From positions 1 through 39,758 of the forward strand of contig CACYHB010000015.1 of NCBI GenBank assembly GCA_902774015.1: a stretch of 39,758 nt of DNA, in the 5' to 3' direction. Numbering within the stretch: position 1 is the stretch's first letter; each line of letters begins with the position of its first letter. Both the position numbers and the translations under genes were made by a program. The notes under the pieces are model-generated. The model was not told the origin of the DNA. It was given only the letters and a program-made list of their open reading frames with translations, and made no database searches. Source of the DNA: Oscillospiraceae bacterium. Lineage in GTDB: Bacteria > Bacillota > Clostridia > Oscillospirales > Oscillospiraceae. This document shows positions 13,879 through 38,261 of this stretch, in pieces.

Positions 13879-13879
13879 G

Positions 13880-18534: not shown

Positions 18535-18575
18535 ATGGTATCAAAAAAGCCCCTTCTTTTTCCATGTCCTCACAA
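18535..18575 (-). promoter_or_regulatory. Putative phage late promoter, copy 2 (tail genes)
   Basis: Read on the minus strand, a 19-base box TTGTGAGGACATGGAAAAA (18575-18557) is followed after 13 bases by TGATACCAT (18543-18535), an extended -10. The same box at the same 13-base distance from TGGTATCAT is found at 38221-38261. It lies 22 bases upstream of the start at 18512 and directly behind a terminator. Confidence 0.7.
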
Positions 18576-18602
18576 CAAAAAGCGGGAGGCTTCCCTCCCG
18601 CT
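18576..18602 (-). terminator. Terminator of the 3,110-aa gene
   Basis: AGCGGGAGG (18581-18589) pairs with CCTCCCGCT (18594-18602) around a 4-base loop. On the minus strand TTTTTGTTG follows. It separates the head/ejection operon from the tail/lysis operon. Confidence 0.85.
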
Positions 18603-18608
18603 CTTTGT

Positions 18609-21600
18609 TTACTTGTGCCAGGGCGTTTTTGCCAGCGTCTTTTCGCTGTTTCGGTACTTGAAGCGGAAGATCACGTCCTTCTGTGCCGGCGTCAGGTTCA
18701 GACCGTCGATGTAGGCGATTACCTGCTTTTGCGTGTCGTCACCCGTGAAAGCGCTGACCTGCTTCCAGTAGTTGTACCAGTCGCGTTTTCCGATCCCGCT
18801 TTCCTGTACGGAGTTGAAATACCACAGTGCTGAAGCGCCCGTGATTTCGCCCAGCGTCTCGTCCGTCCCGGCGAAGTCCAGCACGGCCACGGCCTTGTCG
18901 ATGTTCTCCTCGCTCTGGCCGCCGTACTTGGCCATCATTCGGCGCAGCTGCTGCTCGCTGATCTCTCCGTAGGTATAGGCTTCCCGGATCTCGTCATAGG
19001 CAAAGCCCGTGTCCTTCTCGCACTGCCACTTGAGCACGGCCGCGTTCGCGTCCTCCCGGCTCTGCCCGCCGTAGCGCATCCGCCTTTCCACGGCTGTGCT
19101 GTTCGTCATCTGTCCGTCCAGATAGGCTTCCTTGAGATCTCCGTACTGGATCCCGGTCACAACAAAGCAGCTCCACTCCTGCACGGTTTCCTCGGCCTCG
19201 CGCTGCCGCATCCCGCCGTATGCCTGCAGGAGCTTGACGGCCTGCGCCTTGTCGATGCTGCGTGCCTCTTTTTCTGTGCCCTGATACCATTCGCGGATCC
19301 TCGTCTTGACGGTCGAGCTGATGCTCTTCTCCGCATAGCCCAGGCTCAGCAGCTCCTTGAGCGTGCTCTGATAGCCGGCGGCGTCGTTCTTCTTCACCGC
19401 ACCCAGCAGCGCGTCATACTTTCCGGCGCCGTCAAGGCTCCACTCATACACCGTCTGCTTCGCTTCGCTCGCGTCAGCCGCGAGCCCCTGTTCGATCAGG
19501 AGCTTTTGCGCCTCCTCCTCTGTCAGGTTCCCGTCCTGCAGCGCGTATTTGATGCTCTTTTCCGGTCCCGGATCGTATGTCCTGAAGCGGTACGTACCGA
19601 CCTGGCCGGCCGTGTTGTTCCAGACCGTCTGCACCTCTCGCAGCGTGTTGCCCAGCGGCAGCCCGCTCAGCTGCGACAGCGCCTTCATCACGTTGTATAT
19701 CTTCCCGAACGTAGTCATGCGCCCGTTGTAGGTTGCGTCCGTCGGCGAGTCGATCGTCCCTGTCTGCAGCTTCACCGTCTCGGAGATGATCTCCCACGCC
19801 TTCTTGACGCTTTTGGCCCACTCCATGTCCAGACGTTGCGTCTCGAAGCCGTGCAGCATGGAGTCGATGTCCCGCAGATACGGCAGCTTGTTGTGGATCG
19901 CGAGATCGTTCCAAAGATTCCCCTCCCAGAACTCCCCGCGAAATCCCATTTTTTCCAGCCACTTTTCCGTAAAGCTCGCATACTCGTCGTCGTCCCGCAG
20001 CGCGTCGGCGATGGATTCGACGATGGCCGCCGCGGCCGCCGTCGCGGCATAAGCGAGCATCGCCCGGCCGACCGCGCCGCGCGTCTTGCGCCACGCCTGC
20101 TGCGTGCTCCCGCTCCGGCGTTTCTCCGCGCGGAAGTCGTTGTAGGCGTCGAGCACCATGTTGTAGCTCAGCGTCGGCTCTGACAGGAAGCTCGTTGCCA
20201 TCCCCGCGAAGACGCCCTTCTGCCGCATGTTCTGGCTTCTGGTCATGGTGGAGTCCATCACCTGCGTCCGGTAGATCACATCGTCAAAGCGCTGCGCGGT
20301 CGCCCGCATCAGCTCCTCGCCCCGCAGGTGCTGCTTCTCCGCGACCTCCGCCTCGCAGGCGTTCCAAAGGAAGCCCCAGGTCATCTTATCGCCCCACTCG
20401 GCAAGGAGCATGGACTTCTCGCGCACCTGGTCGGTCAGCTTGTCGTCGTGCTTGATCATCTCGCGCAGGCCGGTGTTGATGTTGGTGTCGTAGAAGCCCA
20501 TGTCCTTCCACACCGCCGTCCCGCTGTACTTCATGGCCTTGTCGCGTCCGGCCTTGTTTCCCATGCTGACGCCCTTGGCCAGATACTTCGGGTCCAGCAC
20601 CGCCGCGGCGCGCACGTAGGCGGTCGGCTGCAGCATGGCCACGCGCAGGTTGGCCGCTACTGCGGCCACCTTGTAGTTGGACAGCATCTTCGCCGCAGCC
20701 TCCTCGCCGCGGCCGCCCTCCTGCGTGCCGTTCATATCCTTCATGAACGTGATAAAGTAGCTCGTCGCGTCCTTGCCCAGCGCCCGCTCCGCCGCCTTCT
20801 GCATGCTCACGGTGGTATACTGCCCGCTCTCCTCGTTCTGCTCGCTGATCGCGTTATAGCTGTACCACTTCATCGCGTCAAGCAGCGGTAGTCCCAGCGC
20901 GTTGTATTTGGCCATGTCCGCCATGTGGTTTGCAAAGGTGTCGAAGGCGCTGCCGAGCACGATGGAATTGCTTGCGTCCCTGATCGTGTTCTTGGTAAAT
21001 CCCATGTTCAGCAGCCGGAACAGGTTGGTGCTGTCTCGGCCCGGATCCCGCAGCGCGCGGCCGCGCGGGTCGGTCTTGATCGGCCAGTAGTGCTCCTCGG
21101 TGAACTGCCGGATGCCGAAGCGCGCCATGCTTACCTCGTTGCCCCATTCGGTGCCCCGCGTGTTCATGTATTTCTGCAGCGCGTCCACGATCGCCCGGTC
21201 CCGCTCGCTCAGCACAGCCGTGATCTCCTGCAGCTCCTCCAGCGTCAGCAGGTAGTTTTCCGCCTGCGTGATCGTCTTCGTCCCGTCCTGGATATCGGAG
21301 ACGCGGATGCCGGCGCCGAGGATGTGGCCGAGCGCCTGCTCACGGCGGGACAGGGCGTAGAGCTCCATCACCTGCGCCTTGCTCATGCGCACGTTCTCCG
21401 TGCCTTCGCTGCGCAGGGCCTCGTTTCCGTCCTCCGTCTTTTCCAGCAGCCGCTTGTGGAGCTGGAAGCTGTAAATCTTCCTCTCCGCCTCGCGCACTTC
21501 CTTTGCGCTGTAGGTCTTCTCGGCAAATTCGACGATCTCCCGGCTGTTGAAGGCCATCTTGCCCCAGCCGTCCTGCAGCTCGCGGAAGATCTGCAGGCCT

Positions 21601-24600
21601 GCCGGGCCGAAGCGCTTGAAGAAGTAGTAGGGCGTCGTGTTGTCCCACTGGAGGAAGCGGCTCAGCGCGTTGTCCGCCTTGGCCCGCTCCAGCGCGTCCA
21701 GGTATTTCACGGTCTCCTCCGCGGCCGCGGAGACGGTAGCGCCCCTCTCCCCGGCCAGCAGCTCATTCTGCTGTGTGATTGCCTTGGAGAGCACCGTCAG
21801 GATGTCCTCCAGATCCTGCAGCTGCTGCAGATCCATCCGGGCCGTTACCCACGTCTTGTCGCCGTCGATGGCCGCCTGCACGCTGTCGATGTGCTTCTCC
21901 ATCACCTCCGCCAGATCCTGCGGCAGATCCATCAACATGCCCTTCCAGTCGCTCTCCGCGCCTTCCATGAAGGCAAGGTTGCTCGCCACGGCCCGCCGGA
22001 TCTCGTTCATCTGCCGGATGTACATCTGCTGCGTCTTTTCGCCCGCTCGATGGGACAAAGTGTCCACCGAGAGCAAAAACTGCCCAAGCGCTGCCTTGAA
22101 CTTCTCCGGCACATGCTTTTCCTTGCTGTTCTCGGTCAGGTATTTTGCCAGGCGGTTCGCGGCCTTCGCGATGCGGATGCGCGCCTTGTACTCCTTGTCC
22201 CGCGTGATCGAGCGCTCGCGCAGCTCGTGCACCTTTTCGCTCACCATCTGCCGCCGCAGCGCCTTTTCGTCCTGCAGTTCGGCGTAGCGGTAGCGCGCCT
22301 CGTCCTGGGCGTCGTTGAGGACCTGCTGCCGGCGCTTGTCCTTTTCTTCCAGGCGCTGACGCTGTTTTTCCGTCTCCCGCTGCAGCCGCTCCTTCATCTG
22401 CTGATACGCCCGGTCGGCCACAGTCTCGCTCTGCCTCACGTCTCCGGACAGCAGCGTGTCGATGATCTCCCCGGCCACCATCTCGGAGATCTCCCGGACT
22501 TCATAATCCCGGTACATCTCATAATAGCTCGGCTCCAGTCTCTCCAGCGCTTCAACGATCTGGTTGAGCTGATCGCTCGGCGCCGTCACGTCCCGCGGGA
22601 ACCACCGCTCGCCGAACTGGTCCCCGAGGCTCTGATACACCTCATCCAGACTCTCGCCCGTTCGGTTGAGCTTCAGCACACCCATGTGCTTTTTGCGGAA
22701 GTAGTCCAGCTCCGGCATGTCCTGCCGGATGTAGTCCGTGATCTGGATCGGCGTCCTGCGCAGATAATCCCGCACCTCCTGCCGCAGCTGCGCGTGGCTG
22801 TCCTCGGTCTCGTAGACGTTCCGCACAATCATCCGCGCGATCCTGGCCGCCCGGCGTTTCGCCTCTTCGTAAAAGCTCACGCCGGCGCCGGCGCGGTTCT
22901 GCGTCATAAAGTCGCCCAGTTCCTGCAGCATCGCGCTCACCTCGCCCACGTCGGCCTCGCTCTGATGCTCCTTCAGGAGGGCGCGTGCCACGCGGCGGAT
23001 GTCGTCCTTGCGCAGCGTCTCTTTTCCCGGCTCCGTGCGCCTGGCCTGCGCCTGCCAGTATTCAAGCAGCTCCTTCTGCGTCCGGTTCTGCTCCCGCAGA
23101 CGGCGAAGCGTCTGTGCCGCCTCGTTGGGGTTGGCGTCCCGCCAGGCGGCCGTTGCCTTCTCCAGCGCCCGTTTGATCTGCGGCATGGCTTCCATCCGCC
23201 GGAGGGCGTTCTCGGCGTTCAGGATGCTCTTCTCCGTCTTCCGGAGCTTCTCCGTGATCTTGTCCTTCTCCGTCCCCTCCGCGCTCTCAGCGGCCTCCTG
23301 TAGCCGCTGTAGGCGTCTCTGGTGCTCCTCCAGCTTCTGCGCCTTCTTGCGGTACTCCTGCAGCTCCGCGCCGCCCTGGCCGCCCTCCGCGGCCTCCAGC
23401 AGCAGCTCCCTGTCGTCCGGCATGAAATCGCGCTCCTGATAGAGCGTTCCATCGTCTCTTTCAGTATACGAAAACAGCATTTCCTCTCTCTGCTGGGCCG
23501 TGTACTGGAGTCCCCCGTCGCTTCTCGGAATTTTCTTGACAGCCGCATAAAGCTGTGCTACAGTATTGATGCCGCTTGAGGAAGGCGCGGATGGGCCGTT
23601 TGTTGCCGAACCGTTTCCGATAGCGGCGATTTCTATATCCCGAAAAACATAAACATGAGCATTGTCCAGGCTTTGAACAACTGTCCCTACAACCACCATC
23701 GTATCTCTTCCGGTTTCTTTTCCGCTTTGATCTTTTGTCACATAATCAAATGTGTTATAGACTCTATACCCGAACAGAGGTATATGCTTGTTGTCCAGAT
23801 GTGTCCGTTCAAGTCCCATCAAGTGCCCGTTTTCCAATAGCTGTTTAATATCAGGAATCATATCCAAAAGAATCTGGTATTCTTGTTGATTTGCTTTTGA
23901 TAGCGATTCTCTGATTGCGTCAGCCGACAGATTTGCATCAAGATCCATTCCATTAATATGAATCTTTGTAATCCCCGTTCCGTAGGCAGCTTGGTAGATG
24001 CTTTTCCCATTGCTGAACCATGACCCGCTTCTTTTGGGTTGGCTTCCCTTGACGATATCCGTTTTTACGATCCGAGAATTATCCTCGCGCATGGTCTTGT
24101 TGAAGCGCGCCGAAAGCGGGAAGCGATCGCCAAGTTGCTTGCTCAGCTCATCAAGCTTTTGTTTTGCGAGTTTTTCACGAATCGCATTATAATCTCTATC
24201 TTGCATCTGCGCGCCGCCCGTCTGGGCGGTGTTTTTCGTTCCCTTCCCGCTCCGGTCGTTACGGATCGCGCCGAGAAGCGCCGCGTCCCAGCGCTTCTGC
24301 AGCTCGGCGGCATGCTGCTCCATGGCCTTTGCCTCGTCGTGGTAGGCCTCCACGCCCTCGAAGGCGTCCCGGATCTTCTGCGTCCAGCCCTTCACCCAGT
24401 CGCTGATGCGCTCAAAGAGGCTCCTGTTCTCCCGGGCGAGCTGCTCGGCCACGCTGCTGCGCCGCAGCATCATCTCGCAGCCGTCGGCCACGACCTCGTC
24501 GATCGCCTGCTCCATGCTGAGCGTCCCGCTCGTGTCCCGCGCCAGCTTGTCCTCGGCCAGCTCCTTAAGGCTCCGCCCCTTCCACTCGATGAGCGTGTCC

Positions 24601-27600
24601 AGCAGGAAGCTCTTCAGCGCCTCATAGCCTTCGGCGTTATTCGCCTGGATATAGTGCGTCAGCTCGTGTGCCGCCGTCCGGATGATGGCCACACGCAGGT
24701 TGTCCCGGCTGTCCCGCATGCCGGCGTTCACGTCCAGATAGATCGTGTTGTTGAAAAAGGCGCCGTTCGCCCCGCGGAAGCGGCCCCTGCTGTCCGCCCG
24801 TGTCTGATAGAAAACGATGTTGACGCCCGTGACCTTCGCCAGCTCCTCCAGCGCCGCGATCTGCCGCTTCTGCCGGGTGGTCAGGCGCTTTTTGTCCACG
24901 GCGTCGTATTTGACGCCGTCGATCTCCGCCCCGTCGAACGTGACCCTGCCCTCGCTCTGGCTCTCCTGCGCAATGGGAGCTGTCTGCTCCGCAGACTGTG
25001 GGGTCGTTTTCTTTTCCTTTTTCTCCTTTTCCCGCTCGGCGATCCGCTGCTCCCGCTCGGCCCGGCCCATCTCAAAGGCTTGCTGGAACTGGCTTCGTTC
25101 AATATCCTGCTGAATTGCCTTCCCGGCGTCCTCCCAGGCGGCCTCCAGCGTTGCGCCGCTGCGGCTGCCGTAGATCTCGCCGATCTGCCAGGCGTCGATG
25201 TACGCGCCGAGATCCTGCCCCTCGCGGTACATGGCCATCATGGCGGGCCCGCTCTTGAGCGCCGCCATCTCCTTCACGGCGTCCTCCAGCAGCGTGTTGT
25301 ATCCGAAGTCGATCTTCGAAACGTCCACCTGCTGCGTGCTGCCGTCGGATTTGGTCACCAGCGCCTTCACGCTGCCGTCTGCCGCGCGTTCCAGCCGCGT
25401 GAAGGTTACTCTCTCCCCGTCCACGCTCACGCGCCCCTGCGTGCTTTTCAGGCCCTCTCCGCGCAGCGTGGAGCGTATGACCTCCGCCGTGTCGGAGTAC
25501 AGGCCTCCTCCCAGCCGCTCTGCGCCGATGTCGCGCACCCATTTGGGGATGCTGCCGCCCGTCATCAGCTTTTCGGCGCTTAGCTCGTGGATCAGGTGCT
25601 CGCCGAAGTGGCTGTTTTTCAGTGCTTCCTCTTCCACACGGTTCAGCTTGTCGCCCTGCACGGTCTTCGCCACAGCTTCCGCGATCAGAGACAGGTTTTT
25701 CCCCGGCTCGTTCACGCTTTCCTGCATCTCCTGCAGCCGGATCTCAACGGCGTTTTTCAGCTTGCTCCTGTCGGTCTCCTCAATGGCCTCGATCAGACGC
25801 TGCGCCTGCAGATTGGAGATCCGCCGCGTCCGGCTGTTTTTCTTCGGTTCCTCGCTCTCCCGCTCCTGCGTCTGGCTGCTCTGCTCACTCTGGCTCTCCT
25901 GTGCAAGGGGAGCTGTCTGCGCAGCAGACTGAGGGGTTGTCGTGACGGTGTCCCCCCTCTTCATCCAGTCCTGCATATCCCGGGCGATTGCCTCGGCCTC
26001 GCCCCCGGAGGCAAGGCCCTGGTCAATGAGCTGCGCGGTGTTCCCCTGATAGCGTCCCAGGCTCTCGATGCCCGACGCCATGCCGCCTGAGATGCCGCCG
26101 GAAAGGAAGCCACCCACTGCGTCGGCAGCGGCGCTCTGCAGCCATTCCTTTTCTGCTTCCTTGGCCGCCTCCTCATAGCTCATTCCCTTGGCCATGCCCA
26201 GCGCGATCTTGGTTGAGATCTCGCTCTTGTCGCCGTTGATGAGCTGGTCGGAGATCCGGTTGCAGATCGTGGTCGCCAGCTCCTCGCTGGCCTCTACGCC
26301 GGACTGCACGAGCACATTTTTCAGCAGCTTCGTGAGACTCGTCGGGCTCTTGATCGTCAGCAGCTTGTCCAGGCTCAGGACCTCGCACCCCGCCTCGGCA
26401 ATGCCGGAGGCAAAGCCGTACCACAGCGCTTTCCCGTCGTCCACGCCCCGCGCTCTTGCATCCTCAAACCCGCTCTTTGCCGCGCTGCCGAAGAACATTC
26501 CGAGCGTTGCCGTGGATCCGAAGTGGGCCGCTGCCTCTCCGGCAAGGCCGACCGCGCCGCCCAGCGCCTTGCCGGCTCCGCCCCACAGCATGCTCTGTCC
26601 GATGCTCACGCCGAGCTGGTACACGTCGCCCCAACCGAAGCTGTCAATGATTTTGCTGTCCACCGTGCCGTAGCGCTCGTTCAGCCCCTGCGATACGGCT
26701 CCGACCATGACGGTTCCGTAATCGGCAAGGCTCATGCTCTCCCGCTGAGTCACGGTCCCCCGCGCCACATATTCCGCCGCGTAGTCAAGGTAATCGGCAA
26801 GAGCCGCCGGCATCGTCAGGATGCCTGCGGCCGCGGAGGCTGCCCTGGTACCGATATTTTTATCAGCCCATTCGCCGGTCTTCTGCTCCTGCTCATAGCG
26901 CGTCTGGGCCTTGTTTCTGTCGTTGATGTACCGGCCGTATTCATAAGCCCGCTCCGGGTCCTGCGCATAGAGATAGCCGAAGGTCTTCTTCTCCTGCTCT
27001 GTCCAGTCCTCCGAGGGCTCCCGCCAGGAGCTGTCGCTGCGCAGCTGGGTCATCAGGTCGTCTTCGTATGTAAGCCCGCCGGTACCTCCGGCGTAGAATT
27101 CCGCCTCCCTCTGTGCGCGCTTCTCCTGCTGTCTGGACCTTTCCGCGGCGCTGTCCGCCGCAAACTTCCGCAGGCCCTCAGCGGCGGCGCTGCTGAAGCC
27201 CTTCGTCTCCGGCAGATCCTCATAGCGCCAGGCCTGGGCATAGCTGCCGATCCGCCTCTTGTCCGCCTCGTCCTGCCGCGCACGTTCAAGCTCTGCTTTG
27301 AGCCGCCTCGCCTCTTCTGCAGCAGCTTTGTCCTCGCCCAGATAGACGCCGTTTTCGTCCCACATGCCGGTGCTCGCCTGAAGCGTTGCATTTGCAAGCC
27401 GGTTCTCCAACTCTGTCACACGCCCGCTCGCCGCCTCAAGATCTGCATTTGCCTGCCGGTACCAGTCGTCGTAGCTTTTCCCGGCCGTTTTTGTCGCCCT
27501 GGCCGCTTTGGAGGCGCTTGCATAGCTGTTGTAATCCGCCTTGCTTTGGAACTGGCCGAAGAAGCTCTGTCTGTCAGTAAGCCCCTGCGCCAGGCTCCCG

Positions 27601-27941
27601 TAGGTGTCCGCGTAATGCTGCAGTCTGCTCTTCAGCGCGCGGTTGTCGCCCGCTTCCGCCATCGCATCCGCGATTTCCTGCTGCCGGGAGCTCACCAGGT
27701 CGGAATACCACTTGTGATTGTTGTTGTCATCCCACCTGTCGCTCTGCAGATACTTCGAGACAGCGCCAGCTCCCAGTTCAAAGCGCTTGAAGCTGTCGGC
27801 ATAATCTGATAGCGCCGCGTATTGATTTGCCAAATCCCATAGGTCGCCGCTGCGCTCGTCTTTTCTTTGACTGCGTTGGGCAGCGCCGTCCGCGCTGCCC
27901 GTAGTGCCGTATTTCTTTGCCAAATCCCATAGATTCGCCAT
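18609..27941 (-). CDS. Giant polyvalent virion protein with zinc-peptidase motif
   Basis: A 3,110-aa multidomain protein of the large polyvalent phage type, probably packaged and ejected into the host. Visible parts: a 30-aa WDLA duplication (1-60); charged helices; a Gly/Ala-rich hydrophobic region (about 365-490); a linker with a repeat-derived peptide (669-684); a second one (980-995); a metallopeptidase-like domain with HELTH at 1092-1096 and a downstream DEVVADGCE segment; a low-GC domain (about 1240-1465, possibly LPD3-like); long coiled coils (about 1480-2050); a C-terminal region recalling LPD38-type domains, ending in ~47-aa helical repeats with YGG (about 2790-3020). AAGGAG precedes the ATG. 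Enzyme activity is inferred from motifs only. Confidence 0.8.
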   Translation of the reverse strand: MANLWDLAKKYGTTGSADGAAQRSQRKDERSGDLWDLANQYAALSDYADSFKRFELGAGAVSKYLQSDRWDDNNNHKWYSDLVSSRQQEIADAMAEAGDNRALKSRLQHYADTYGSLAQGLTDRQSFFGQFQSKADYNSYASASKAARATKTAGKSYDDWYRQANADLEAASGRVTELENRLANATLQASTGMWDENGVYLGEDKAAAEEARRLKAELERARQDEADKRRIGSYAQAWRYEDLPETKGFSSAAAEGLRKFAADSAAERSRQQEKRAQREAEFYAGGTGGLTYEDDLMTQLRSDSSWREPSEDWTEQEKKTFGYLYAQDPERAYEYGRYINDRNKAQTRYEQEQKTGEWADKNIGTRAASAAAGILTMPAALADYLDYAAEYVARGTVTQRESMSLADYGTVMVGAVSQGLNERYGTVDSKIIDSFGWGDVYQLGVSIGQSMLWGGAGKALGGAVGLAGEAAAHFGSTATLGMFFGSAAKSGFEDARARGVDDGKALWYGFASGIAEAGCEVLSLDKLLTIKSPTSLTKLLKNVLVQSGVEASEELATTICNRISDQLINGDKSEISTKIALGMAKGMSYEEAAKEAEKEWLQSAAADAVGGFLSGGISGGMASGIESLGRYQGNTAQLIDQGLASGGEAEAIARDMQDWMKRGDTVTTTPQSAAQTAPLAQESQSEQSSQTQERESEEPKKNSRTRRISNLQAQRLIEAIEETDRSKLKNAVEIRLQEMQESVNEPGKNLSLIAEAVAKTVQGDKLNRVEEEALKNSHFGEHLIHELSAEKLMTGGSIPKWVRDIGAERLGGGLYSDTAEVIRSTLRGEGLKSTQGRVSVDGERVTFTRLERAADGSVKALVTKSDGSTQQVDVSKIDFGYNTLLEDAVKEMAALKSGPAMMAMYREGQDLGAYIDAWQIGEIYGSRSGATLEAAWEDAGKAIQQDIERSQFQQAFEMGRAEREQRIAEREKEKKEKKTTPQSAEQTAPIAQESQSEGRVTFDGAEIDGVKYDAVDKKRLTTRQKRQIAALEELAKVTGVNIVFYQTRADSRGRFRGANGAFFNNTIYLDVNAGMRDSRDNLRVAIIRTAAHELTHYIQANNAEGYEALKSFLLDTLIEWKGRSLKELAEDKLARDTSGTLSMEQAIDEVVADGCEMMLRRSSVAEQLARENRSLFERISDWVKGWTQKIRDAFEGVEAYHDEAKAMEQHAAELQKRWDAALLGAIRNDRSGKGTKNTAQTGGAQMQDRDYNAIREKLAKQKLDELSKQLGDRFPLSARFNKTMREDNSRIVKTDIVKGSQPKRSGSWFSNGKSIYQAAYGTGITKIHINGMDLDANLSADAIRESLSKANQQEYQILLDMIPDIKQLLENGHLMGLERTHLDNKHIPLFGYRVYNTFDYVTKDQSGKETGRDTMVVVGTVVQSLDNAHVYVFRDIEIAAIGNGSATNGPSAPSSSGINTVAQLYAAVKKIPRSDGGLQYTAQQREEMLFSYTERDDGTLYQERDFMPDDRELLLEAAEGGQGGAELQEYRKKAQKLEEHQRRLQRLQEAAESAEGTEKDKITEKLRKTEKSILNAENALRRMEAMPQIKRALEKATAAWRDANPNEAAQTLRRLREQNRTQKELLEYWQAQARRTEPGKETLRKDDIRRVARALLKEHQSEADVGEVSAMLQELGDFMTQNRAGAGVSFYEEAKRRAARIARMIVRNVYETEDSHAQLRQEVRDYLRRTPIQITDYIRQDMPELDYFRKKHMGVLKLNRTGESLDEVYQSLGDQFGERWFPRDVTAPSDQLNQIVEALERLEPSYYEMYRDYEVREISEMVAGEIIDTLLSGDVRQSETVADRAYQQMKERLQRETEKQRQRLEEKDKRRQQVLNDAQDEARYRYAELQDEKALRRQMVSEKVHELRERSITRDKEYKARIRIAKAANRLAKYLTENSKEKHVPEKFKAALGQFLLSVDTLSHRAGEKTQQMYIRQMNEIRRAVASNLAFMEGAESDWKGMLMDLPQDLAEVMEKHIDSVQAAIDGDKTWVTARMDLQQLQDLEDILTVLSKAITQQNELLAGERGATVSAAAEETVKYLDALERAKADNALSRFLQWDNTTPYYFFKRFGPAGLQIFRELQDGWGKMAFNSREIVEFAEKTYSAKEVREAERKIYSFQLHKRLLEKTEDGNEALRSEGTENVRMSKAQVMELYALSRREQALGHILGAGIRVSDIQDGTKTITQAENYLLTLEELQEITAVLSERDRAIVDALQKYMNTRGTEWGNEVSMARFGIRQFTEEHYWPIKTDPRGRALRDPGRDSTNLFRLLNMGFTKNTIRDASNSIVLGSAFDTFANHMADMAKYNALGLPLLDAMKWYSYNAISEQNEESGQYTTVSMQKAAERALGKDATSYFITFMKDMNGTQEGGRGEEAAAKMLSNYKVAAVAANLRVAMLQPTAYVRAAAVLDPKYLAKGVSMGNKAGRDKAMKYSGTAVWKDMGFYDTNINTGLREMIKHDDKLTDQVREKSMLLAEWGDKMTWGFLWNACEAEVAEKQHLRGEELMRATAQRFDDVIYRTQVMDSTMTRSQNMRQKGVFAGMATSFLSEPTLSYNMVLDAYNDFRAEKRRSGSTQQAWRKTRGAVGRAMLAYAATAAAAAIVESIADALRDDDEYASFTEKWLEKMGFRGEFWEGNLWNDLAIHNKLPYLRDIDSMLHGFETQRLDMEWAKSVKKAWEIISETVKLQTGTIDSPTDATYNGRMTTFGKIYNVMKALSQLSGLPLGNTLREVQTVWNNTAGQVGTYRFRTYDPGPEKSIKYALQDGNLTEEEAQKLLIEQGLAADASEAKQTVYEWSLDGAGKYDALLGAVKKNDAAGYQSTLKELLSLGYAEKSISSTVKTRIREWYQGTEKEARSIDKAQAVKLLQAYGGMRQREAEETVQEWSCFVVTGIQYGDLKEAYLDGQMTNSTAVERRMRYGGQSREDANAAVLKWQCEKDTGFAYDEIREAYTYGEISEQQLRRMMAKYGGQSEENIDKAVAVLDFAGTDETLGEITGASALWYFNSVQESGIGKRDWYNYWKQVSAFTGDDTQKQVIAYIDGLNLTPAQKDVIFRFKYRNSEKTLAKTPWHK
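23560..24215. other. Low-GC domain insert within the 3,110-aa gene
   Basis: A hand count gives about 40% GC over 23641-23940 (121 of 300), against about 62% in the flanking line 24361-24420. The segment encodes residues about 1243-1461, bounded by similar peptides (DRDYNAI at the start, YQERDF at the end). The fold resembles a small beta-barrel of the LPD3 kind (FGYRVYNTFDYV, VVGTVVQSLDNAHVYVFRDIEI). It looks like a domain acquired separately. Confidence 0.65.
24961..25006. repeat. Palindromic repeat element inside the 3,110-aa gene, copy B
   Basis: On the minus strand the element reads in frame as TTPQSAEQTAPIAQESQ (residues 979-995). Its DNA matches the host intergenic copy at 5354-5404 over most of its length (ACCCCxCAGTCTGC ... 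GCAGACAGCTCCC). It lies in a Lys/Glu-rich linker just before the metallopeptidase domain. Confidence 0.7.
25890..25937. repeat. Palindromic repeat element inside the 3,110-aa gene, copy A
   Basis: On the minus strand it reads in frame as TPQSAAQTAPLAQESQ (residues 669-684) and keeps both hairpins of the host copy at 5354-5404 (CAGTCTGC/GCAGAC and CTCCCCTTGCACAGG). It sits in a Gln/Ser/Glu-rich linker between two domains. Confidence 0.75.
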
Positions 27942-31188: not shown

Positions 31189-31195
31189 TGCCCGC

Positions 31196-31429: not shown

Positions 31430-31450
31430 GTGTTTCTCCTTTCCGTGAGC

Positions 31451-31501
31451 CCCCCTGCCTCCCCTGTATCAGGGGAGGTTCCCCACAGGGGCGGAGGGGT
31501 C
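31451..31501. repeat. Palindromic repeat element after the capsid gene
   Basis: On the minus strand it runs GACCCCTCCG, a variable stem (CCCCTGTGGGG), then CTCCCCTGATACAGGGGAG. It has the head and tail of the family seen at 5354 and 39532. It fills most of the gap between the capsid gene and the 77-aa gene. Confidence 0.65.
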
Positions 31502-31510
31502 ACTTTTTCC

Positions 31511-32785
31511 TTAGTTCGCGGAAGCGCCCGCGGAGAACTCGGCGGAGCAGCACTCCAGACGGATGATGCGCTCCGGGTACAGGATCTTCGCCACCTCCAT
31601 GGCCTTCCAGCCGATGGTGCTGCGCTGATCCAGCGGGTCCGTGGTGCCGCCGCTGCCCTTGGGCTTGACGATCACCTGCATGTTGTTGCCTTCCACGTCG
31701 ACGACGCCGTAGGCATCCTTCCCGCAGAACAGGCAGCTGAGCACGGCCGCGCCCTGCTTGCCGCCCTCGCCCGGATAGATGACCGCGTCGTTCGCGATGC
31801 TGCCGAAGTTTGTGCTGGCGAAGGTCAGCGTGGTTGCGGTGTTGTCGGTGATCGTCGCCACCACGCCGTTGATGTTGATCTTCCGGCCGATCAGGGCGTC
31901 CTCCGCCACGGTCGTCCCGTCGAACGTGATGCTGGTGATCGCGCCGCTGTAGCCGTCGGCATTATTGACCAGCATGGTGCCGGTGCCGAGCTTCTCGCCG
32001 GCGAAGATCTGCGCCTCCGTGGACTCGACAAAGCGCACGCCGTGCAGCTTGCCGATCTCGCCCTCGTAGATGCTCTCCGCGTCGGTGTACTTGTGCGCCT
32101 CCAGCCACTCGGGGTCCCTCGTGATCTCGTAATGGCTGTACGGGTGCAGGATGCACACATAGTCGCCGTCGATCTTAGGTACGTTGTCCGCCTTGAGCAT
32201 CGCCGCGATCTTGGCCACGAGCTTGCCGGTCAGCACGCAGGTGGTGTCCAGCTCGCCGCGGCTCGTCACGGGGGTCTCCGCGCTGCCCGGCCCCGCCGCG
32301 AGCTTCGGCGCGTACACGACGGAGGTGCCGCTGTTGATCTCGTTGCGCACCACGGTGTCCATCGTCAGGCCGCCCTGGTTGCCGATCAGCTGCGTGGTCT
32401 CCACGATCATGTTGTCGATCGCGGTCATCTCCAGCACGTCGGACAGTTCGACGTAGTAGCCGTACTGCGCGACCGTGGCCGTGATGTTCGTCACGGTCAG
32501 GGTGCCCTTGTTCGGGGTAACGCCTTCGGTCAGCGGCGTCAGCGCCTTCGGCAGGGTCTGGAACTTGCGGAACTCGATTGTCTTGCCGTTGCCCTTGGGG
32601 ATGGGCCGCTTCTGGCCGAACTGGTGGTGCACCAGGTTCGGCTTGGCGTTGTCCAGCAGGGTCTTGTCGTAAAAGGTCTTCATCTCCGGCGAGAGAGAAG
32701 ACTGGGTGGTGACCTGCGTGCCGTTCGCGTTTTCGCCCGAGAACAGCTTCAGGTTCAGTGCGATGATGTACATGGTCTTTTTCAT
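31511..32785 (-). CDS. Major capsid protein, N4-gp56 family
   Basis: A 424-aa HK97-fold capsid protein of the N4-gp56 family, recognised from segments PNLVHHQFGQKRPIPKGNGK, FRKFQTLPKALTPLTEG, YGYYVELSDVLEMTAID and WKAMEVAKILYPERIIRLE. It forms the icosahedral shell. The N-terminus has the motif LNLKLFSG (residues 10-17), which parallels LDLRLFDG in the scaffold and resembles the site cut by Prp proteases. An Ig-like insert may lie at about 270-330 (VNNADGYSGAITSITFDG, then GVVATITDNTATTLTF). AAGGAG precedes the ATG. Confidence 0.93.
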   Translation of the reverse strand: MKKTMYIIALNLKLFSGENANGTQVTTQSSLSPEMKTFYDKTLLDNAKPNLVHHQFGQKRPIPKGNGKTIEFRKFQTLPKALTPLTEGVTPNKGTLTVTNITATVAQYGYYVELSDVLEMTAIDNMIVETTQLIGNQGGLTMDTVVRNEINSGTSVVYAPKLAAGPGSAETPVTSRGELDTTCVLTGKLVAKIAAMLKADNVPKIDGDYVCILHPYSHYEITRDPEWLEAHKYTDAESIYEGEIGKLHGVRFVESTEAQIFAGEKLGTGTMLVNNADGYSGAITSITFDGTTVAEDALIGRKININGVVATITDNTATTLTFASTNFGSIANDAVIYPGEGGKQGAAVLSCLFCGKDAYGVVDVEGNNMQVIVKPKGSGGTTDPLDQRSTIGWKAMEVAKILYPERIIRLECCSAEFSAGASAN

Positions 32786-32820
32786 TTTGATCTCCTTTCA
32801 CACGTGAGGAGATCCGATCG

Positions 32821-33714
32821 CTACAGTACGATGCGTTCTCCTCGTCTGGCGCGCGCGATCAACTCGTCGCGCTCCTTTTTGGTCATGTTGTTTACGTCCC
32901 GTTTGGTGACAACGCCTGCCTGACTTCCGAGCGCCCCTTCTGCCGGGCGGCTGCGGTTTGCCTGGATCGCGCTGCCAACCTTCGCGGCCGTCTGCTGTGC
33001 GGTAAACTGCATCGCCGCCGGGATGATCTCGTCCTTGTGTACCACCTCGTAGGCCGTCCGCACGTCCACGCCCGCGTTCAGCAGCTTCTCGAAAGCCGGG
33101 TTCGCAAGCTCTGTGCTCAGCTCGTACTGGGGATACACGGCCTTGACCGCCTCGGACTCCTTTTCCCATCGGGACAGGATCCGGTTCGCTTCCTCCTGGT
33201 TGCTCATGGCGGCGAGCTTGCCCTCCAGCTCCTGGATCTGCTGTTTGTCCTTCAGCATGTTTTTGTACTGCGGGACGGTCATATCCAGCTTGGCTGCGGC
33301 TTCCTCGAAGTAGGAGCTGTCCTCCTCGATTGCCGCGGCCAGGGCGGCAAGGTCTCCCTCCTTTACGCCGTGCTTCGTCGCCAGCGTGGAGAGGATCGGC
33401 TTGGCCTCGTTGTACCGCTTCACGGTGTCCTCGGTCGCTTTCAGGCGCTTGCCGACGATGCGCTGTACCTCCTGCCCGAAGAGCTCCTTGTAGTCGCCCT
33501 CGATCATCGCGCGCCACGTCGTCGCCTTGTCTGCGCCCTGTCCTGTGCCCTCCCCGGCGGCGGGAGTGGAGACTCCCTTCTGGGCTTCTCCTTCTTTTAC
33601 GCCCGTCTGCGGCCCGGCGTCGGCCGCCTGTACGCCCGCTCCGCCTTCTCCTGCGCCTGCCGCGCCTCCGTCAAAGAGTCGCAGGTCAAGAACAAGGCTC
33701 TCAAATGTGAACAT
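32821..33714 (-). CDS. Scaffolding protein
   Basis: A 297-aa protein placed directly before the capsid gene, as scaffolds usually are. The first 60 residues are Gly/Ala-rich and disordered, preceded by the motif LDLRLFDG (residues 9-16). Long helices and coiled coil follow (about 65-230), then a basic C-terminal tail (KKERDELIARARRGERIVL), the part that usually binds capsid protein. It would guide procapsid assembly and leave before or during packaging. GGAGG precedes the ATG. Confidence 0.88.
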   Translation of the reverse strand: MFTFESLVLDLRLFDGGAAGAGEGGAGVQAADAGPQTGVKEGEAQKGVSTPAAGEGTGQGADKATTWRAMIEGDYKELFGQEVQRIVGKRLKATEDTVKRYNEAKPILSTLATKHGVKEGDLAALAAAIEEDSSYFEEAAAKLDMTVPQYKNMLKDKQQIQELEGKLAAMSNQEEANRILSRWEKESEAVKAVYPQYELSTELANPAFEKLLNAGVDVRTAYEVVHKDEIIPAAMQFTAQQTAAKVGSAIQANRSRPAEGALGSQAGVVTKRDVNNMTKKERDELIARARRGERIVL

Positions 33715-33758
33715 GGTGTTCCTCCGGCCCGTCGGTGGGCCAGCCCATAACCTGTCCG

Positions 33759-34139
33759 TCAGGTGGACGAGTCCTTTGAAAAAGCCTTTTCGGCTGTATC
33801 AAACAATGTTACCTGCACGAAATCCCTGTGGTTTCGCGCCAGCAGGTCAAGCCCGACCTCGATCACGAAAAAGCCGTAGAGCGTTTCGTCCCAGGCCTCC
33901 GCTTTCGGCTTGGCCGTGATCTGGCAGCGGCCGGGGCGCAGCACAATGTGCGGCTCCTTCTGCATCTTCTCCTCCGCGTGGAGGTACAGCAGCAGCTGCG
34001 CCAGCGTCTGCGACAGCATCGAAGCGGACGCGCATACCAGCGCCTGTCCTTCGCCTTCTCCCGCTCTGACCGCGTGCCCCGTCATCACGAGGCTGATGCT
34101 CCCGCTCTCGGCGTCTGTGGAAAACTTGGCTTTGATCAT
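33759..34139 (-). CDS. Prp-type cysteine protease, probable prohead protease
   Basis: A 126-aa homologue of the ribosomal-processing cysteine protease Prp. The catalytic pair is His22 (GHA) and Cys36 (ALVCASASMLSQTL), close to the spacing in the S. aureus enzyme. In Firmicutes Prp trims the N-terminus of ribosomal protein L27, and in phage 80alpha infection it trims capsid and scaffold proteins. Here the gene lies between portal and scaffold, the usual prohead-protease position. The residues between His and Cys are more acidic than in host enzymes (RAGEGEGQ). AAGGAGG precedes the ATG. Most likely a capsid-maturation protease rather than a ribosome enzyme; this is inference from position. Confidence 0.85.
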   Translation of the reverse strand: MIKAKFSTDAESGSISLVMTGHAVRAGEGEGQALVCASASMLSQTLAQLLLYLHAEEKMQKEPHIVLRPGRCQITAKPKAEAWDETLYGFFVIEVGLDLLARNHRDFVQVTLFDTAEKAFSKDSST

Positions 34140-34148
34140 ATGTCCTCC

Positions 34149-36068
34149 TTACATCGGCGACGTGGCCTGTGCGGTCTTTTCCTTCGCCTTCCGCGTCACG
34201 CTGCTCTCGCCCAAATCCTCCTGCGGCATGCTCGCGCTGCCCGCCGGTGCCGGCGCGCCTCCTCCCGTGGCCGCGAACTGCTGCATGAGGCTCTGCGCCG
34301 TCCTCCCCGTCGGGTCAAGCATCTGCGCCATCTGAATGGCCGTCTGCTGCGTCGCCATCAGCTGCTGGTACAGCGTGCCGTTCTGGGCGATGCGCTGCAT
34401 CACGCTGCTGCGCCGCTCGAAGTCCATCATCTCCAGGCAGGCCAGCGCGTTGTCGCTGTTCTGCGGCAGGAACATGCCGGCGTTGTAGAACTGCAGCGCC
34501 AGCTCGTTTTGCGCGAGCCGCGAGTAAGCGGACGCCTTTTCTACCTTGACCTCGATATCGAAGATCGGCAGCCGGTATCCGACCTCCACGCCCATTTCCG
34601 TAGGCGCGCCGTTGACCATCTGGCCCTGCGGCTGCGGCGTCAGCCCCTCGTTGGAGTAGGGCGTGAACTGCATGCTGCCGTCCTCGCCTGTGATCCTGAC
34701 CTGCCGCGGCACCGTGTAGCCCTGCCTGACCCGCTCGATGATCTTCAGCGAGATCTGCTCAAAGGCCCGGAAGCTGCCCTTCCCGCTGTCGCGGCTGAGC
34801 TTGCTCCCCGCCTCAAGCATGGCCGCGATCGCCGCGGCCGCCGTGGCGCCGCCCGTCGTGCCGCCGTTGGACACGTCGCGGTTGCCCGAGGTCTCCTTGA
34901 GCTCCTCGATCTTGTTGTTCAGGATCGTCACATAGATGCTCGGCAGGTTTGGCGGCTGGATCTGCCGGATGCTTTCTTCGCCCAGGCCGCCGGTCACATG
35001 CACAAGCGTCTTGGAGAAGTCCGCGAACTCCGCCTCATTTACGGCGCCGTCGATCTTGTACATGTAGCGCGGCCGCGCCCCGGCAAGCAGGCTCTGCATG
35101 ATCGCCTGGTCGGCGCGGTCGATGTACTCCTGCGCGCCCTTGTCGACGTCGATGTAGCCGAATCCACAGGGCGTCCCGTTCAGCGGGAACAGCACGTCGA
35201 ACACGAAGGGGTACTCGCCGTCCTCGTACCAGCCCGCCGCATACTCGCTCTCATTTTCGGACGCAAAAAGCGGCTCCTTCCAGCCGGACACGAACTGGCA
35301 CAGGTGCAGCACCGTCCGGCCGTCCGGCGTGCTGCGGCGGTAATACCAGTCCACCATCAGAGACTTTTCGCTGATGTCCACCGTGTCGTCGTACTGGTAG
35401 GTGGCGAGATCCATCACCTTCCCGCCAAGCTGTCCCTTGAGCTGCGGGTACTGTTCCTCCAGCTCCTCGTTGTCTCTCAGATAGGCGTAGAACACGTTGC
35501 GGCTCTGCTGAATGTCCTCGACGCCCGGCTCCCAGAACAGGTTGAGCAGGTCGATCCGTTTCACGTCCACGTCGCCGAGGCCGTGGCTCAGCGCCGGGTT
35601 CCACAGAACCGCGTATACGCCCGTGCCGTTTTTGATCTTGTCATACATGGCCCGGGAGTAAGCTTCCTCGAAGCGGCAGTTTTTCAGGATCACAGGGATC
35701 ACGGCGGAGAGCGTTTTCGCCTCCTGCTGATCTCCCTCCTCCCTCGGCAGGATGATCGGCGCCGGCGCGTTGTCCATGGCGTCCGCGTGCTTGTTTGCGA
35801 TCGCATTAAAAAGCCACCCGCTCGCTGGCTCCACCTGGTTCTTCTCGGACTTGCGCATGACCTCCCAGTGCCGGAGCTTGTACCACTTCTCGTTCTCGAT
35901 CAGCTTGTTCTCCAGGTTGGCCTTCCCGCGCTTGTACTCCTGCATCGTCTCCCAGGCCTTGCGGATCTCTTCCGCTCCCACCGGCTTCGATGTGGTGTTG
36001 AACTTGTACATCTGGTCAAGGCTCTCGGCCACGGCCGCATCGCCCTGCAGATTTTCTCTCTCATCCAT
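34149..36068 (-). CDS. Portal protein, P22-like
   Basis: A 639-aa portal protein that forms the ring through which DNA enters and leaves the capsid. Recognisable segments are WYKLRHWEVMRKSEKNQVEP, GTGVYAVLWNP, VDVKRIDLLNLFWEPGVEDI and SLLAGARPRYMYKIDG. Its length is that of P22-type portals rather than the shorter siphovirus forms. The C-terminal part has an Ala/Gln-rich barrel-like helix (about 575-625). The start overlaps the TerL stop by 8 bases, with GGAGGTG upstream. Confidence 0.9.
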   Translation of the reverse strand: MDERENLQGDAAVAESLDQMYKFNTTSKPVGAEEIRKAWETMQEYKRGKANLENKLIENEKWYKLRHWEVMRKSEKNQVEPASGWLFNAIANKHADAMDNAPAPIILPREEGDQQEAKTLSAVIPVILKNCRFEEAYSRAMYDKIKNGTGVYAVLWNPALSHGLGDVDVKRIDLLNLFWEPGVEDIQQSRNVFYAYLRDNEELEEQYPQLKGQLGGKVMDLATYQYDDTVDISEKSLMVDWYYRRSTPDGRTVLHLCQFVSGWKEPLFASENESEYAAGWYEDGEYPFVFDVLFPLNGTPCGFGYIDVDKGAQEYIDRADQAIMQSLLAGARPRYMYKIDGAVNEAEFADFSKTLVHVTGGLGEESIRQIQPPNLPSIYVTILNNKIEELKETSGNRDVSNGGTTGGATAAAAIAAMLEAGSKLSRDSGKGSFRAFEQISLKIIERVRQGYTVPRQVRITGEDGSMQFTPYSNEGLTPQPQGQMVNGAPTEMGVEVGYRLPIFDIEVKVEKASAYSRLAQNELALQFYNAGMFLPQNSDNALACLEMMDFERRSSVMQRIAQNGTLYQQLMATQQTAIQMAQMLDPTGRTAQSLMQQFAATGGGAPAPAGSASMPQEDLGESSVTRKAKEKTAQATSPM

Positions 36069-37557
36069 CCTCGATCACCTCCAGCCTCCGCGCCTTCCGC
36101 GCAGGAAGCAGATCTTCCTCCTTGATGTCCAGCGCCTGCAGCGCGGGATCTTTTGACCAGTCCTTCTTCTTGAGCTGCACGCGCGGCTCGATCGGCCGCG
36201 CCATGCAGAAATAGCGGCTTTCGTCCGCCACATGGTCCTCGCCCTCCGTGTCCAGGTCCTCCACGTTCGTCTTGTCGTATTCCAGCAGCGGGATCGTGCG
36301 GATGAAGGCCTTGCAGTTGGAAAAGACATACAGCATCGCATATCCGTTTTCGTCAAAACTCATCCGGTAATGCAGCTGCATCCACCCGGGGATCCGCGCG
36401 TGGTCTCCCTTCTCGAAAAAGACGTGGAATTTCTCCGCCGTCTCAGCGATGCTCTCTCCGTACTGGCCGTCCCAGATCGCCGGATCTGCGACGCCGCGGA
36501 TCGTCTTGCCCTTCAGCCACGGGTGGTCCCGCTCGATCTCGTGGATCTTCTCAAAGACCTTGTATTTGTCCAGCTTCAAGCCCTCGTTGGCCACGCCTGT
36601 CCAGCCGTAGTATTCCAAGATTCGGTATACCACGCTGTCCCGGTCCACGGCCCACCAGCCGCAGGAGAACGGCTTGTTGTAGCCCCAGTCGAAGCTGCGG
36701 TAGATCGTCCAGTCCGCCGGCGGTGTAAAGGGGTCGATCACGTGCGTCCAGCGCTTTTCCGCGCGCAGCTGCTCCGGCGTCTCGCGGAAGCCGTGCCGGA
36801 TCGCCTCCTGCACGTCCGGGGTCTCACGGAACTCCTCGAAGAATTGCCCCTCAAGGATCGTCCAGTCGCCCTCCAGCCACGCCTTGCGCAGCTTCGGCGG
36901 CAGGGTTTCCAGCCTCGTCAGATACTCCGGGTCTCTCTCCATCAGCGCTGGGTTGTCTGTCACAAGCGCCTGGATGAAGCTGTAGTCCTCCGGCCGCTCC
37001 CCGCGGTGGTATTCCCGGTCGATGAACAGGCGCTTGACCCAGCTGTGCCCCGGCCCGCCTGGGTTGCAGGTGTAGTAGATGCGCTTCGGGAAGCTGTTGG
37101 CGCCGCGCACGCAGGCCCGCAGCCTGTCCATGTGCTCCTCCGTCTGGTGCGTGGCCTCGTCCACGAACAGCACGTCCACCTCAAGGCCTTGGAATCGGTC
37201 TACGTCGCGGTCTGTGTCACAGTACCGGAACAGGATTCTGCTTCGGTTCGGGAAAACCAGATGCTTTTTCTGGTCGTTGTATAGCGCCACGCGCTTTTCC
37301 GCGTCCTCGTCGTAGCAGTGCAGCAGCTCGATCATCGGCTGGATGTGGTTCTCCTGCAGCTCCGGGTAAGTCCGACGCACGATCAGGATCTTGATGCCCG
37401 GCCAGCGCAGCGCGAGCAGGATCGCCTTTGCCCGCACGGCCCAGCTTTTGCCGCCGCCGCGCGCGCCGCCGTAGGCCACGTATCGGTGATTGTCGGTCAA
37501 AAAGAGCTTCTGCTTCTCGCTCACGCCGACGTCCGTCAGCACGATCTCCTGCTTCAT
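36061..37557 (-). CDS. terL: Terminase large subunit
   Basis: A 498-aa DNA-packaging motor. The N-terminal ATPase has Walker A GGARGGGKS (residues 30-38) and Walker B VDVLFVDE (127-134, Asp133/Glu134). A coupling motif (YTCNPGG) follows near residue 163. The C-terminal RNase H-like nuclease starts at about 270, with acidic residues in RSFDWGYNKP and GVADPAIWD. It cuts concatemeric phage DNA and pumps it into the procapsid through the portal. The ATG overlaps the TerS stop (ATGA). Confidence 0.95.
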   Translation of the reverse strand: MKQEIVLTDVGVSEKQKLFLTDNHRYVAYGGARGGGKSWAVRAKAILLALRWPGIKILIVRRTYPELQENHIQPMIELLHCYDEDAEKRVALYNDQKKHLVFPNRSRILFRYCDTDRDVDRFQGLEVDVLFVDEATHQTEEHMDRLRACVRGANSFPKRIYYTCNPGGPGHSWVKRLFIDREYHRGERPEDYSFIQALVTDNPALMERDPEYLTRLETLPPKLRKAWLEGDWTILEGQFFEEFRETPDVQEAIRHGFRETPEQLRAEKRWTHVIDPFTPPADWTIYRSFDWGYNKPFSCGWWAVDRDSVVYRILEYYGWTGVANEGLKLDKYKVFEKIHEIERDHPWLKGKTIRGVADPAIWDGQYGESIAETAEKFHVFFEKGDHARIPGWMQLHYRMSFDENGYAMLYVFSNCKAFIRTIPLLEYDKTNVEDLDTEGEDHVADESRYFCMARPIEPRVQLKKKDWSKDPALQALDIKEEDLLPARKARRLEVIEDG

Positions 37558-37949
37558 ACGCTGTAGTCTCCGCCGTCAAAGCCCTTGATCGTCACGCTGA
37601 TTTCCCTGTTGGCGTTTCCGCTCTCGTTTTCCACAAGCTGCCCGAAGCGCTTGAGCAGCGTCTCCGCCGCCCGCATCCGATCGCTCAGCGCCGGGTCAAG
37701 GTCGAATTGGTCCTTGATCTCGCCGCGCATGACCTTTGTCAGGAATACCAGCGTCTCCTCCAGATCCGCCGTGTGGGAAAGTTCCCGCATGCGCTCGTGG
37801 ATGAGCGCCTTGACCTCCGGTTTTCTGAGGTTTTCGTATCCCATCTGCGCGGCCGTCTTCTCGGAGTATCCGGCCATCCTGGCCGCGGCCGTCGCGTTGA
37901 GCGTGTCGCACCAGTACTTTGCAAACAGTTTCTGTCTCGCGGTCGCCAT
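37554..37949 (-). CDS. terS: Terminase small subunit
   Basis: A 131-aa DNA-recognition subunit of the terminase (Terminase_2 type). The N-terminal helix-turn-helix is ATAAARMAGYSEKTAAQMGYENLRKPEV (about 20-47). The C-terminal half is an oligomerisation coiled coil (about 65-110) followed by a short tail. It picks the packaging site and hands DNA to TerL. The ATG at 37949 is used; the GTG one codon earlier is less likely. Its start shares one base with the upstream stop (TGATG). Confidence 0.9.
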   Translation of the reverse strand: MATARQKLFAKYWCDTLNATAAARMAGYSEKTAAQMGYENLRKPEVKALIHERMRELSHTADLEETLVFLTKVMRGEIKDQFDLDPALSDRMRAAETLLKRFGQLVENESGNANREISVTIKGFDGGDYSV

Positions 37950-38191
37950 CACATCACCGCCCTGCTCTCCTCGTACCGCTCGGCCAGCAGCTTCACGACC
38001 TCGCCGAGCTTGTAGGTCTCCAGCAGCCGCGTCCTTCTGCCCGTCGCGGCGTCCCGCTCACGCAGGATGTACTTTGTCAGCACGCGGCCGTAGCGCCGGG
38101 AGAAGAACACTTTCCGGTCCAGCGTGAGATTTGCGCCGCCGCGGCAGAGCGCCGTCAGCAGCTTTTCAGCCGTCTTGTTCAGGCCCGCCAT
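37949..38191 (-). CDS. 80-aa basic protein before terS
   Basis: A small, strongly basic protein (FFSRRYGRVLTKYILRERDAA, then GRRTRLLETYKLGEVVKLL), with a helical C-terminus. It is the first gene behind late promoter copy 1 and is coupled to terS. The ATG at 38191 is chosen because GGAGG precedes it and the promoter -10 lies at 38221-38226; the longer frame would begin upstream of the transcript. It may assist TerS in DNA binding; this is inferred from position and charge. Confidence 0.7.
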   Translation of the reverse strand: MAGLNKTAEKLLTALCRGGANLTLDRKVFFSRRYGRVLTKYILRERDAATGRRTRLLETYKLGEVVKLLAERYEESRAVM

Positions 38192-38220
38192 ACGCGCCGC
38201 CTCCTTCTCTTGATGGCGGC

Positions 38221-38261
38221 ATGATACCAAATCTTGTCTGCGTTTTTCCATGTCCTCACAA
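38221..38261 (-). promoter_or_regulatory. Putative phage late promoter, copy 1 (packaging/head genes)
   Basis: Read on the minus strand, TTGTGAGGACATGGAAAAA (38261-38243), 13 bases, then TGGTATCAT (38229-38221). The box and distance are identical to copy 2 at 18535-18575. It lies 29 bases upstream of the 80-aa gene, at the start of the packaging/head operon. No normal -35 hexamer is present. Confidence 0.7.

Follow-up and report, generated by a model that had tools for sequence, protein, structure and literature searches.

The stretch of DNA analyzed here (the window) is the whole of contig C15 (39,758 bases) in a draft genome of 2.78 Mb from an Oscillospiraceae bacterium. From ~10.46 kb rightwards, its sequence is that of a prophage that has a P22-type portal and late genes on the minus strand. 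Two intergenic sites of this prophage, termed A and B, are probably late promoters that carry a private box read by a phage activator, most likely the small four-cysteine protein p75. When the sites are placed beside their counterparts in related phages, the late genes of at least ten relatives likewise seem to be switched on through promoters that bear the phage's own tag. An earlier, sequence-only reading of this DNA had proposed a pair of late promoters that are specific to the phage and carry an activator box, and the proposal is borne out to the extent that relatives keep the two-site layout, each with its own box and a near-fixed spacing.

The pair itself is well defined. As that reading had claimed, an identical 19-base box, TTGTGAGGACATGGAAAAA, occurs twice on the minus strand (19/19 positions equal), each time 13 bases from an extended -10, which is TGATACCAT at site A and TGGTATCAT at site B (Table 1). 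The 13-base spacers differ in sequence at this constant distance, with 3/13 positions equal when read directly, and TANNNT stands 16 nt past the box at both sites. At ≤3 mismatches, the box has exactly two matches in the window and no third in the whole of its own genome, and 0/100 dinucleotide shuffles of the window gave two, so that chance is an unlikely source of the pair. The expected placement before late operons was also found: site B precedes the 80-aa gene and the genes for TerS, TerL, portal, and capsid, and site A precedes the 112-aa gene and the tail and lysis genes. The claim of a hairpin just upstream stands for both sites, whereas a terminator-like score was obtained at site A alone, on the plus strand; the stem there has TTTTGTTG behind it on the minus strand (read directly), and the hairpin at site B was not scored as a terminator in the terminator scan.

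The relatives were collected with TerL as query, which gave 196 related stretches in viral contigs, of which 80 were kept, and matches in 28/60 genomes, the window's own included. Many of them present the same anatomy before TerS, namely, a terminator, a G-rich box, ~20 bases, a -10, a ribosome-binding site (RBS), and a start codon. In relatives read as wholes, the phage's own box recurs directly behind the giant gene, taken as the largest late-strand open reading frame (ORF) where no homology to the giant gene of the window was listed. This second box starts 6-12 nt past the giant-gene stop in G001, G002, G003, G005, G006, G007, G009, G010, and G014 and overlaps the stop in G004. G015 is an exception, with four box sites and none at the post-giant-gene position, and what is common to the two stretches of G013 is the -10 region and not a box. 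When the post-giant-gene stretches of 14 phages, the window included, were compared with the pre-TerS stretches of 17, the phage's own stretch came first in 10/14, and the summed own-phage score of 181 was reached by 0/20,000 permutations (mean, 136.2; maximum, 168.5). G011, G012, and G015, without a defined post-giant-gene stretch, entered this test for comparison only. The own phage was not first in G004, G007, G008, and G016; G007 was missed because the compared stretch was too short, its further box pair lying upstream of that stretch.

When each of 12 phages was scanned for its own box, 33 places were found on the late strand versus 1 on the opposite strand; as 24/33 of the own-strand matches define the boxes, the independent part of this contrast is 9 versus 1. 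Four of the 33 were flagged as lying within an ORF of >150 aa: G005 12267 in the LRR gene, G015 17108, and G006 28461 and G007 36093, the last two in apparent 5' extensions of the next gene. Each of the 12 phages has 2-5 box sites, the second of G004 being weak. Five sites, not two, are present in both G003 (L120-L122) and G006 (L128-L130), and more operons therefore seem to use the box in these phages. The box thus differs between phages yet matches within each phage, which is the pattern that a phage-specific reader predicts.

The spacing between box and -10 offers a second line of evidence, assessed on 32/34 of the scan matches after G005 12267 and the opposite-strand G010 7233 had been dropped. 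TANNNT lies at one common distance from the box at every site used in 6/12 phages (shuffle mean, 0.12; maximum, 3), and 22/32 sites lie at a TANNNT distance common to at least two sites of the phage (shuffle mean, 0.72; maximum, 7). Neither value was reached in 5,000 shuffles, and the distance ranges from 14 to 21 between phages. Among the exceptions, G002 is off by one base, G015 has distances of 19, 20, 20, and 19, one of five sites is off in each of G003 and G006, the weak TerS-side box of G004 has no TANNNT, and the TerS copy of G014 has GATAAT at 19. The earlier claim of a constant spacing is therefore best restated as a family tendency, strict in 6/12 phages. An unbiased search for pairs of similar gaps also found several pairs; its counts are not used here, as the control made of other-strand gaps was poor because those gaps are mostly coding.

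These results bear on whether sites A and B could be ordinary weak host promoters, in which TGGAAA within the box serves as a poor -35 and the identity of the two boxes reflects recent duplication or gene conversion. The promoter scan does give TGGAAA-18-TATCAT at site B, scoring 9/12 and accompanied by TG, and to that extent the statement that no normal -35 is present has to be softened for site B. It stands for site A, where the scan scored no TTGACA-like -35. A recent duplication would sit poorly with spacers that differ at all but 3/13 positions while box and spacing are kept, and the relatives keep the box-to--10 distance with boxes in which no TTGACA-like hexamer is apparent by eye. Weak host promoters are thus a highly improbable account of the pair.

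Searches for the literal box sequence could easily mislead here, as the box diverges between phages. In the collections searched, which may lack records very close to the genome of the window, literal matches elsewhere are chance matches inside genes. The exact box had no match in the viral contigs, and the relatives fetched first gave two 4-mismatch matches, none closer, both within ORFs. In the genus (102 genomes), a 2-mismatch match is present in three genomes other than the window's own, always within genes. Patterns of box plus -10 had no match in the genome contigs and matched only the window's own two sites in the genus; their one match in the viral contigs falls in a coding frame, on a contig that has neither p75 nor TerL matches. 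A repeat search that required 14 exact bases and TGNTA returned the window's pair as the sole promoter-like pair. The expectation that related prophages carry the box at these sites therefore failed for the exact sequence and held for position, with another box in the same two places.

A different role for the box, as an RNA or DNA site rather than as part of a promoter, is suggested by folding. Behind the giant gene, the box seems to double in the relatives as the 5' arm of a hairpin: in 10/10 relatives folded, the post-giant-gene copy pairs with the bases directly 3' of it (-14 to -23 kcal/mol; z, -2.5 to -6.3). The box could accordingly be a terminator arm or a site for antitermination, TerS packaging, or recombination, and the pre-TerS copy of G001 (z, -2.2), three further sites of G006, and one of G015 are hairpin arms as well. 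However, G001 is the only one of eleven relatives whose pre-TerS copy forms such a hairpin; the ten others, with the weak box of G004 counted, and both copies in the window form no strong hairpin with the box, and neither do three further sites of G003 and one of G015, with one more G015 site intermediate (z, -1.9). The hairpin hence does not explain the identity of the boxes. The near-constant distance to TANNNT, followed by an RBS and a start codon, also fits a promoter, and with 2 to 5 sites per phage, we regard an RNA or DNA site without promoter function as very unlikely.

If the sites are activator-dependent promoters, p75 is the most plausible reader of the box. Among early genes of the set, its family is the most frequent (30/43 phages by BLAST clustering; 39/54 loci by hidden Markov model) and is present in 41/45 nonredundant relatives with at least 5 kb of upstream sequence. 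Four cysteines, spaced CX14CX27CX7C in the window, are invariant in 69/69 aligned p75 sequences, which suggests a metal site, probably for zinc. Scans of four to six members against Pfam, NCBIfam, and PHROGs gave no convincing family, and in Pfam, up to an E value of 10, the only match among four p75s (three of them typed) was to an ET module, at 0.096, for the p75 of the window. The family profile matched no PDB sequence below an E value of 0.1, and tblastn with two p75 queries found no match in the phages collection. A model of the window p75 built from 69 sequences (predicted local distance difference test [pLDDT] score, 83) has three strands and three helices and retrieved 2 uncharacterized phage proteins from BFVD at an E value of ≤0.001; a first model from 26 sequences (pLDDT, 56) was not used.

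p75 and the box are further connected by an association in which the sequence of p75 predicts that of the box. Across 20 phages with promoters picked by eye, p75 similarity and box similarity are correlated (rho, 0.50; partial on TerL, 0.37; P = 0.0024), and the partial correlation recurs in 42 phages with automatic promoter calls (rho, 0.33; P = 0.0003). More specifically, phages whose p75 matches the type GSYxQ...CPFYK.DDG.RRITC have a GGATAGARAA box, which resembles that of the window, in 5/7 cases versus 2/63 for other p75 phages, and one of those two, L036, escaped the pattern although its p75 is of this type by eye. As L013 and L036 were already known when the pattern was drawn up, the contrast was recalculated without them and stands at 4/6 versus 1/62 (P = 9e-5). 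L310 and L243 fail the prediction, the former with a near variant, GGGATAGATATT with TTGGTACGAT, that was counted as a miss. Up to its second cysteine, the p75 of the window is nearest to the GGATAGARAA-associated type (top 8 of 68), and in the 20-phage comparison its box is nearest to that of L013, while its TerL is not especially close to those of the GGATAGARAA-type phages (0.51-0.59 versus 0.64 for the nearest phage).

Relatives without p75 are also informative. Of the four (4/45), L017, L037, and L290 have a RinA/ArpU-like gene no more than 1.8 kb upstream of TerL, L225 has neither gene by these searches, and none of the 45 has both; the RinA-like genes were sought with two seeds, and the P value for this exclusivity includes the seeds. 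The genes of L037 and L290 are ones that we take to be ArpU/RinA members, on the basis of weak phrog_36 matches to G008 and mutual similarity. The L019 gene matches phrog_36 and, below its cutoff, TIGR01636, and neither profile has a match among six p75s scanned. L017 is the nearest relative of the window in the 80-aa gene and TerS and the second, after L031, in the replication initiation protein (Rep), with 41% identity between the 80-aa gene and its L017-L020 counterpart (the query frame being two codons longer). In the slot occupied in the window by p75 and the box, L017 has its RinA-like gene and a different promoter-like sequence, a tandem TGTCAGTGA with TGCTATAAT (read in its twin L019); among the loci scanned, such TGTCA tandem repeats occur only in the L017-L020 phage. 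In the two of these three regulator-swapped phages for which the giant gene is available (G008 and G016), no second box was seen behind that gene. At L019 6915-6935 and in the pre-packaging gap of L290, the -10 overlaps or precedes a near-palindrome, ATGRTATCAT, and the TGRTAYCA of the window has the same form as this element of the RinA/ArpU-type relatives.

It could also be argued that the late promoters and their boxes are read by another phage protein, RinA/ArpU-like, a sigma factor, or some early protein, to which p75 is merely linked. The contig lacks the early region of the prophage, between the window end at 39758 and contig C27, and the gene for a different regulator could lie in it. 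phrog_36, a broad sigma/RinA-like profile with matches in 12/14 control genomes too, gives weak matches in three p75-bearing phages (G004, G014, and G015) and none in nine others (G001, G002, G003, G005, G006, G007, G009, G010, and G012), and DUF1492 was not found in the window's own genome. Sigma profiles weakly match 8/26 related records and none of the 26 over the curated cutoff; together with the host-type -10s, this favors an activator over a sigma factor, both of which the sequence-only reading had allowed. The association with the GGATAGARAA box also points to p75 itself, as the p75 type predicts the box even in L013, where p75 lies ~4.9 kb upstream of TerL (4.9-7 kb in L013 and L036). 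On balance, a different reader seems unlikely, though less so than the accounts without an activator.

Besides the missing early region and the weak phrog_36 matches, several observations weigh against p75 as the activator. TerL similarity also correlates with the box (0.55 in 20 phages and 0.29 in 42), so common descent explains part of the p75-box correlation, and the other half of the window p75 is not close to the GGATAGARAA-associated type, L036 and L013 ranking 46 and 51 of 68. At a net charge of +1, p75 is not notably basic, and Foldseek found no match to its model in the PDB at an E value of ≤0.001, so that DNA binding by p75 stays a prediction. In L027 and six prophages of the host genus (L143, L145, L148, L146, L141, and L139; G036 and others), p75 abuts TerS without a promoter-sized gap and may thus have another or an additional role; in these six, the stretch between p75 and an apparent repressor region upstream, read by eye, is very short. 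A strict box-promoter pattern precedes TerS in only 30/69 p75 phages, compared with 1 of 69 on the opposite strand, a weak control because the coding strand is G-rich, and it is also found in 5/21 phages without p75 in hand, L225 included. Finally, two of the three RinA-type phages are the search seeds, which leaves L290 as the sole independent case.

The proposed arrangement can be compared with known late activators. P2 Ogr is a C4 zinc-finger activator with the motif CX2CX22CX4C that serves four late promoters with the consensus TGT-N12-ACA (PMC3931495). Similarly, several late promoters here would have one common site and a small four-cysteine protein. Unlike the P2 site, the boxes differ between phages, and the window box has TGT-N4-ACA, not TGT-N12-ACA (read directly); the cysteine spacing of p75 is not that of Ogr, and p75 has no Ogr match in Pfam. 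A second comparison is with the RinA/ArpU/Ltr late regulators of Gram-positive phages. In Staphylococcus phages, the genes for the RinA/Ltr proteins precede the late promoter, and the proteins bind repeats; Ltrs are ~130 aa in length and generally bind four imperfect repeats, and a single late transcript is described for RinA/Ltr promoters, with further late starts in phage phi13 (PMC13123087). The p75 gene (38286-38513) lies likewise directly upstream of the pre-terminase site B (38261-38221), and in three relatives such a gene is carried in place of p75. In contrast to Ltrs, p75 has 75 aa, with one box copy per site and two or more late promoters, and the six p75s scanned match neither profile of the RinA/ArpU type. 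The system may work like P2 Ogr or RinA/Ltr, although p75 fails the tested sequence criteria of both.

In the middle promoters of phage T4, a MotA box stands in place of the -35, with a host-type -10 at a fixed distance. The MotA box and protein are not known to be related to the box of the window and p75. No description of p75 or of these boxes was found in the literature searched, made up mostly of papers outside subscription.

We infer binding of the boxes by p75, transcription from both sites, and an involvement of zinc. In such a scheme, host RNA polymerase would recognize the host-type extended -10, and one private box per promoter, at a fixed distance, would replace a good -35. A phage activator made in the early phase, most likely p75, encoded directly upstream of site B and probably binding zinc, would bind the box. 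Site B would then drive the packaging and head genes, and site A would restart transcription behind the giant gene and into the tail and lysis genes. Beyond this, we see about even chances that the widespread, unnamed family of ~75-aa four-cysteine proteins is a new class of late activator, that the phages' own boxes diverge with it in a lock-and-key manner that insulates related phages from one another, and that, at one of the two conserved promoter positions in the relatives folded, the box belongs to the hairpin terminating the giant gene, with one set of bases closing an operon and opening the next. If true, an unnamed gene that ranks among the commonest in this podovirus family would gain a function, and promoter and activator would change together while their positions stay fixed. 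Dozens of natural activator/box pairs would then be at hand from which recognition rules could be derived, and an exact-box search in relatives could falsely suggest that such a promoter is not conserved.

The late genes of the prophage run in the order Rep, p75, 80-aa gene, TerS, TerL, portal, Prp protease, phrog_13908 protein, and capsid, and farther on internal virion protein, giant 3110-aa gene, 112-aa gene, 939-aa protein, LRR, CBM, and CHAP endolysin (Table 1).

Table 1. Putative promoter elements, hairpins, and genes of the prophage, in window coordinates
Feature	Positions	Strand	Remarks
Site A box TTGTGAGGACATGGAAAAA	18557..18575	-	19 bases
Site A 13-base spacer	18544..18556	-	Read directly
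Site A extended -10 TGATACCAT	18535..18543	-	Predicted start, ~18528
Site B box TTGTGAGGACATGGAAAAA	38243..38261	-	19/19 identical to site A box
Site B 13-base spacer	38230..38242	-	
Site B extended -10 TGGTATCAT	38221..38229	-	Predicted start, ~38214
Hairpin at giant-gene end	18581..18602	-	Just before site A; terminator-like on plus strand by score
Hairpin, 10-bp stem	38276..38304	-	Overlaps p75 end, before site B; read from sequence
Rep	38525..39343	-	phrog_3584; upstream of p75
p75, 75 aa	38286..38513	-	Cysteines C14, C29, C57, C65; candidate late activator; directly upstream of site B
80-aa gene	37949..38191	-	ATG 38191; first gene after site B
TerS, small terminase	37554..37952	-	
TerL, large terminase	36061..37557	-	Query for relatives
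P22-type portal	34149..36068	-	
Major capsid protein	31511..32785	-	
Giant 3110-aa gene	18609..27941	-	Site A box starts 34 nt after its stop
112-aa gene	18174..18512	-	ATG 18512; first gene after site A; phrog_15594
939-aa protein, LRR, CBM5/12, CHAP endolysin	13048..18184	-	Remaining site A operon

The ends of the prophage can also be placed in part. A 54-base sequence at 10406-10459, the 3' end of a tRNA-Tyr gene, is repeated exactly at C27:1920-1973 of the same genome, where an integrase gene (L157:806-1900) adjoins the repeat. The two copies are probably the attachment sites of the prophage, and contig C27 is probably its other end. The last 159 bases of the window (39600-39758) have 97% identity to the end of contig C27, and both contigs thus stop in one repeated coding piece. 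The same genome holds a second, divergent relative, L138 on contig C4, with a TerL 65% identical. Among the other loci, the TerL matches of G047 and G056 contain one in-frame TAG each and that of G051 one TAA (L087, L088, and L093), which would reflect either decay or recoding.

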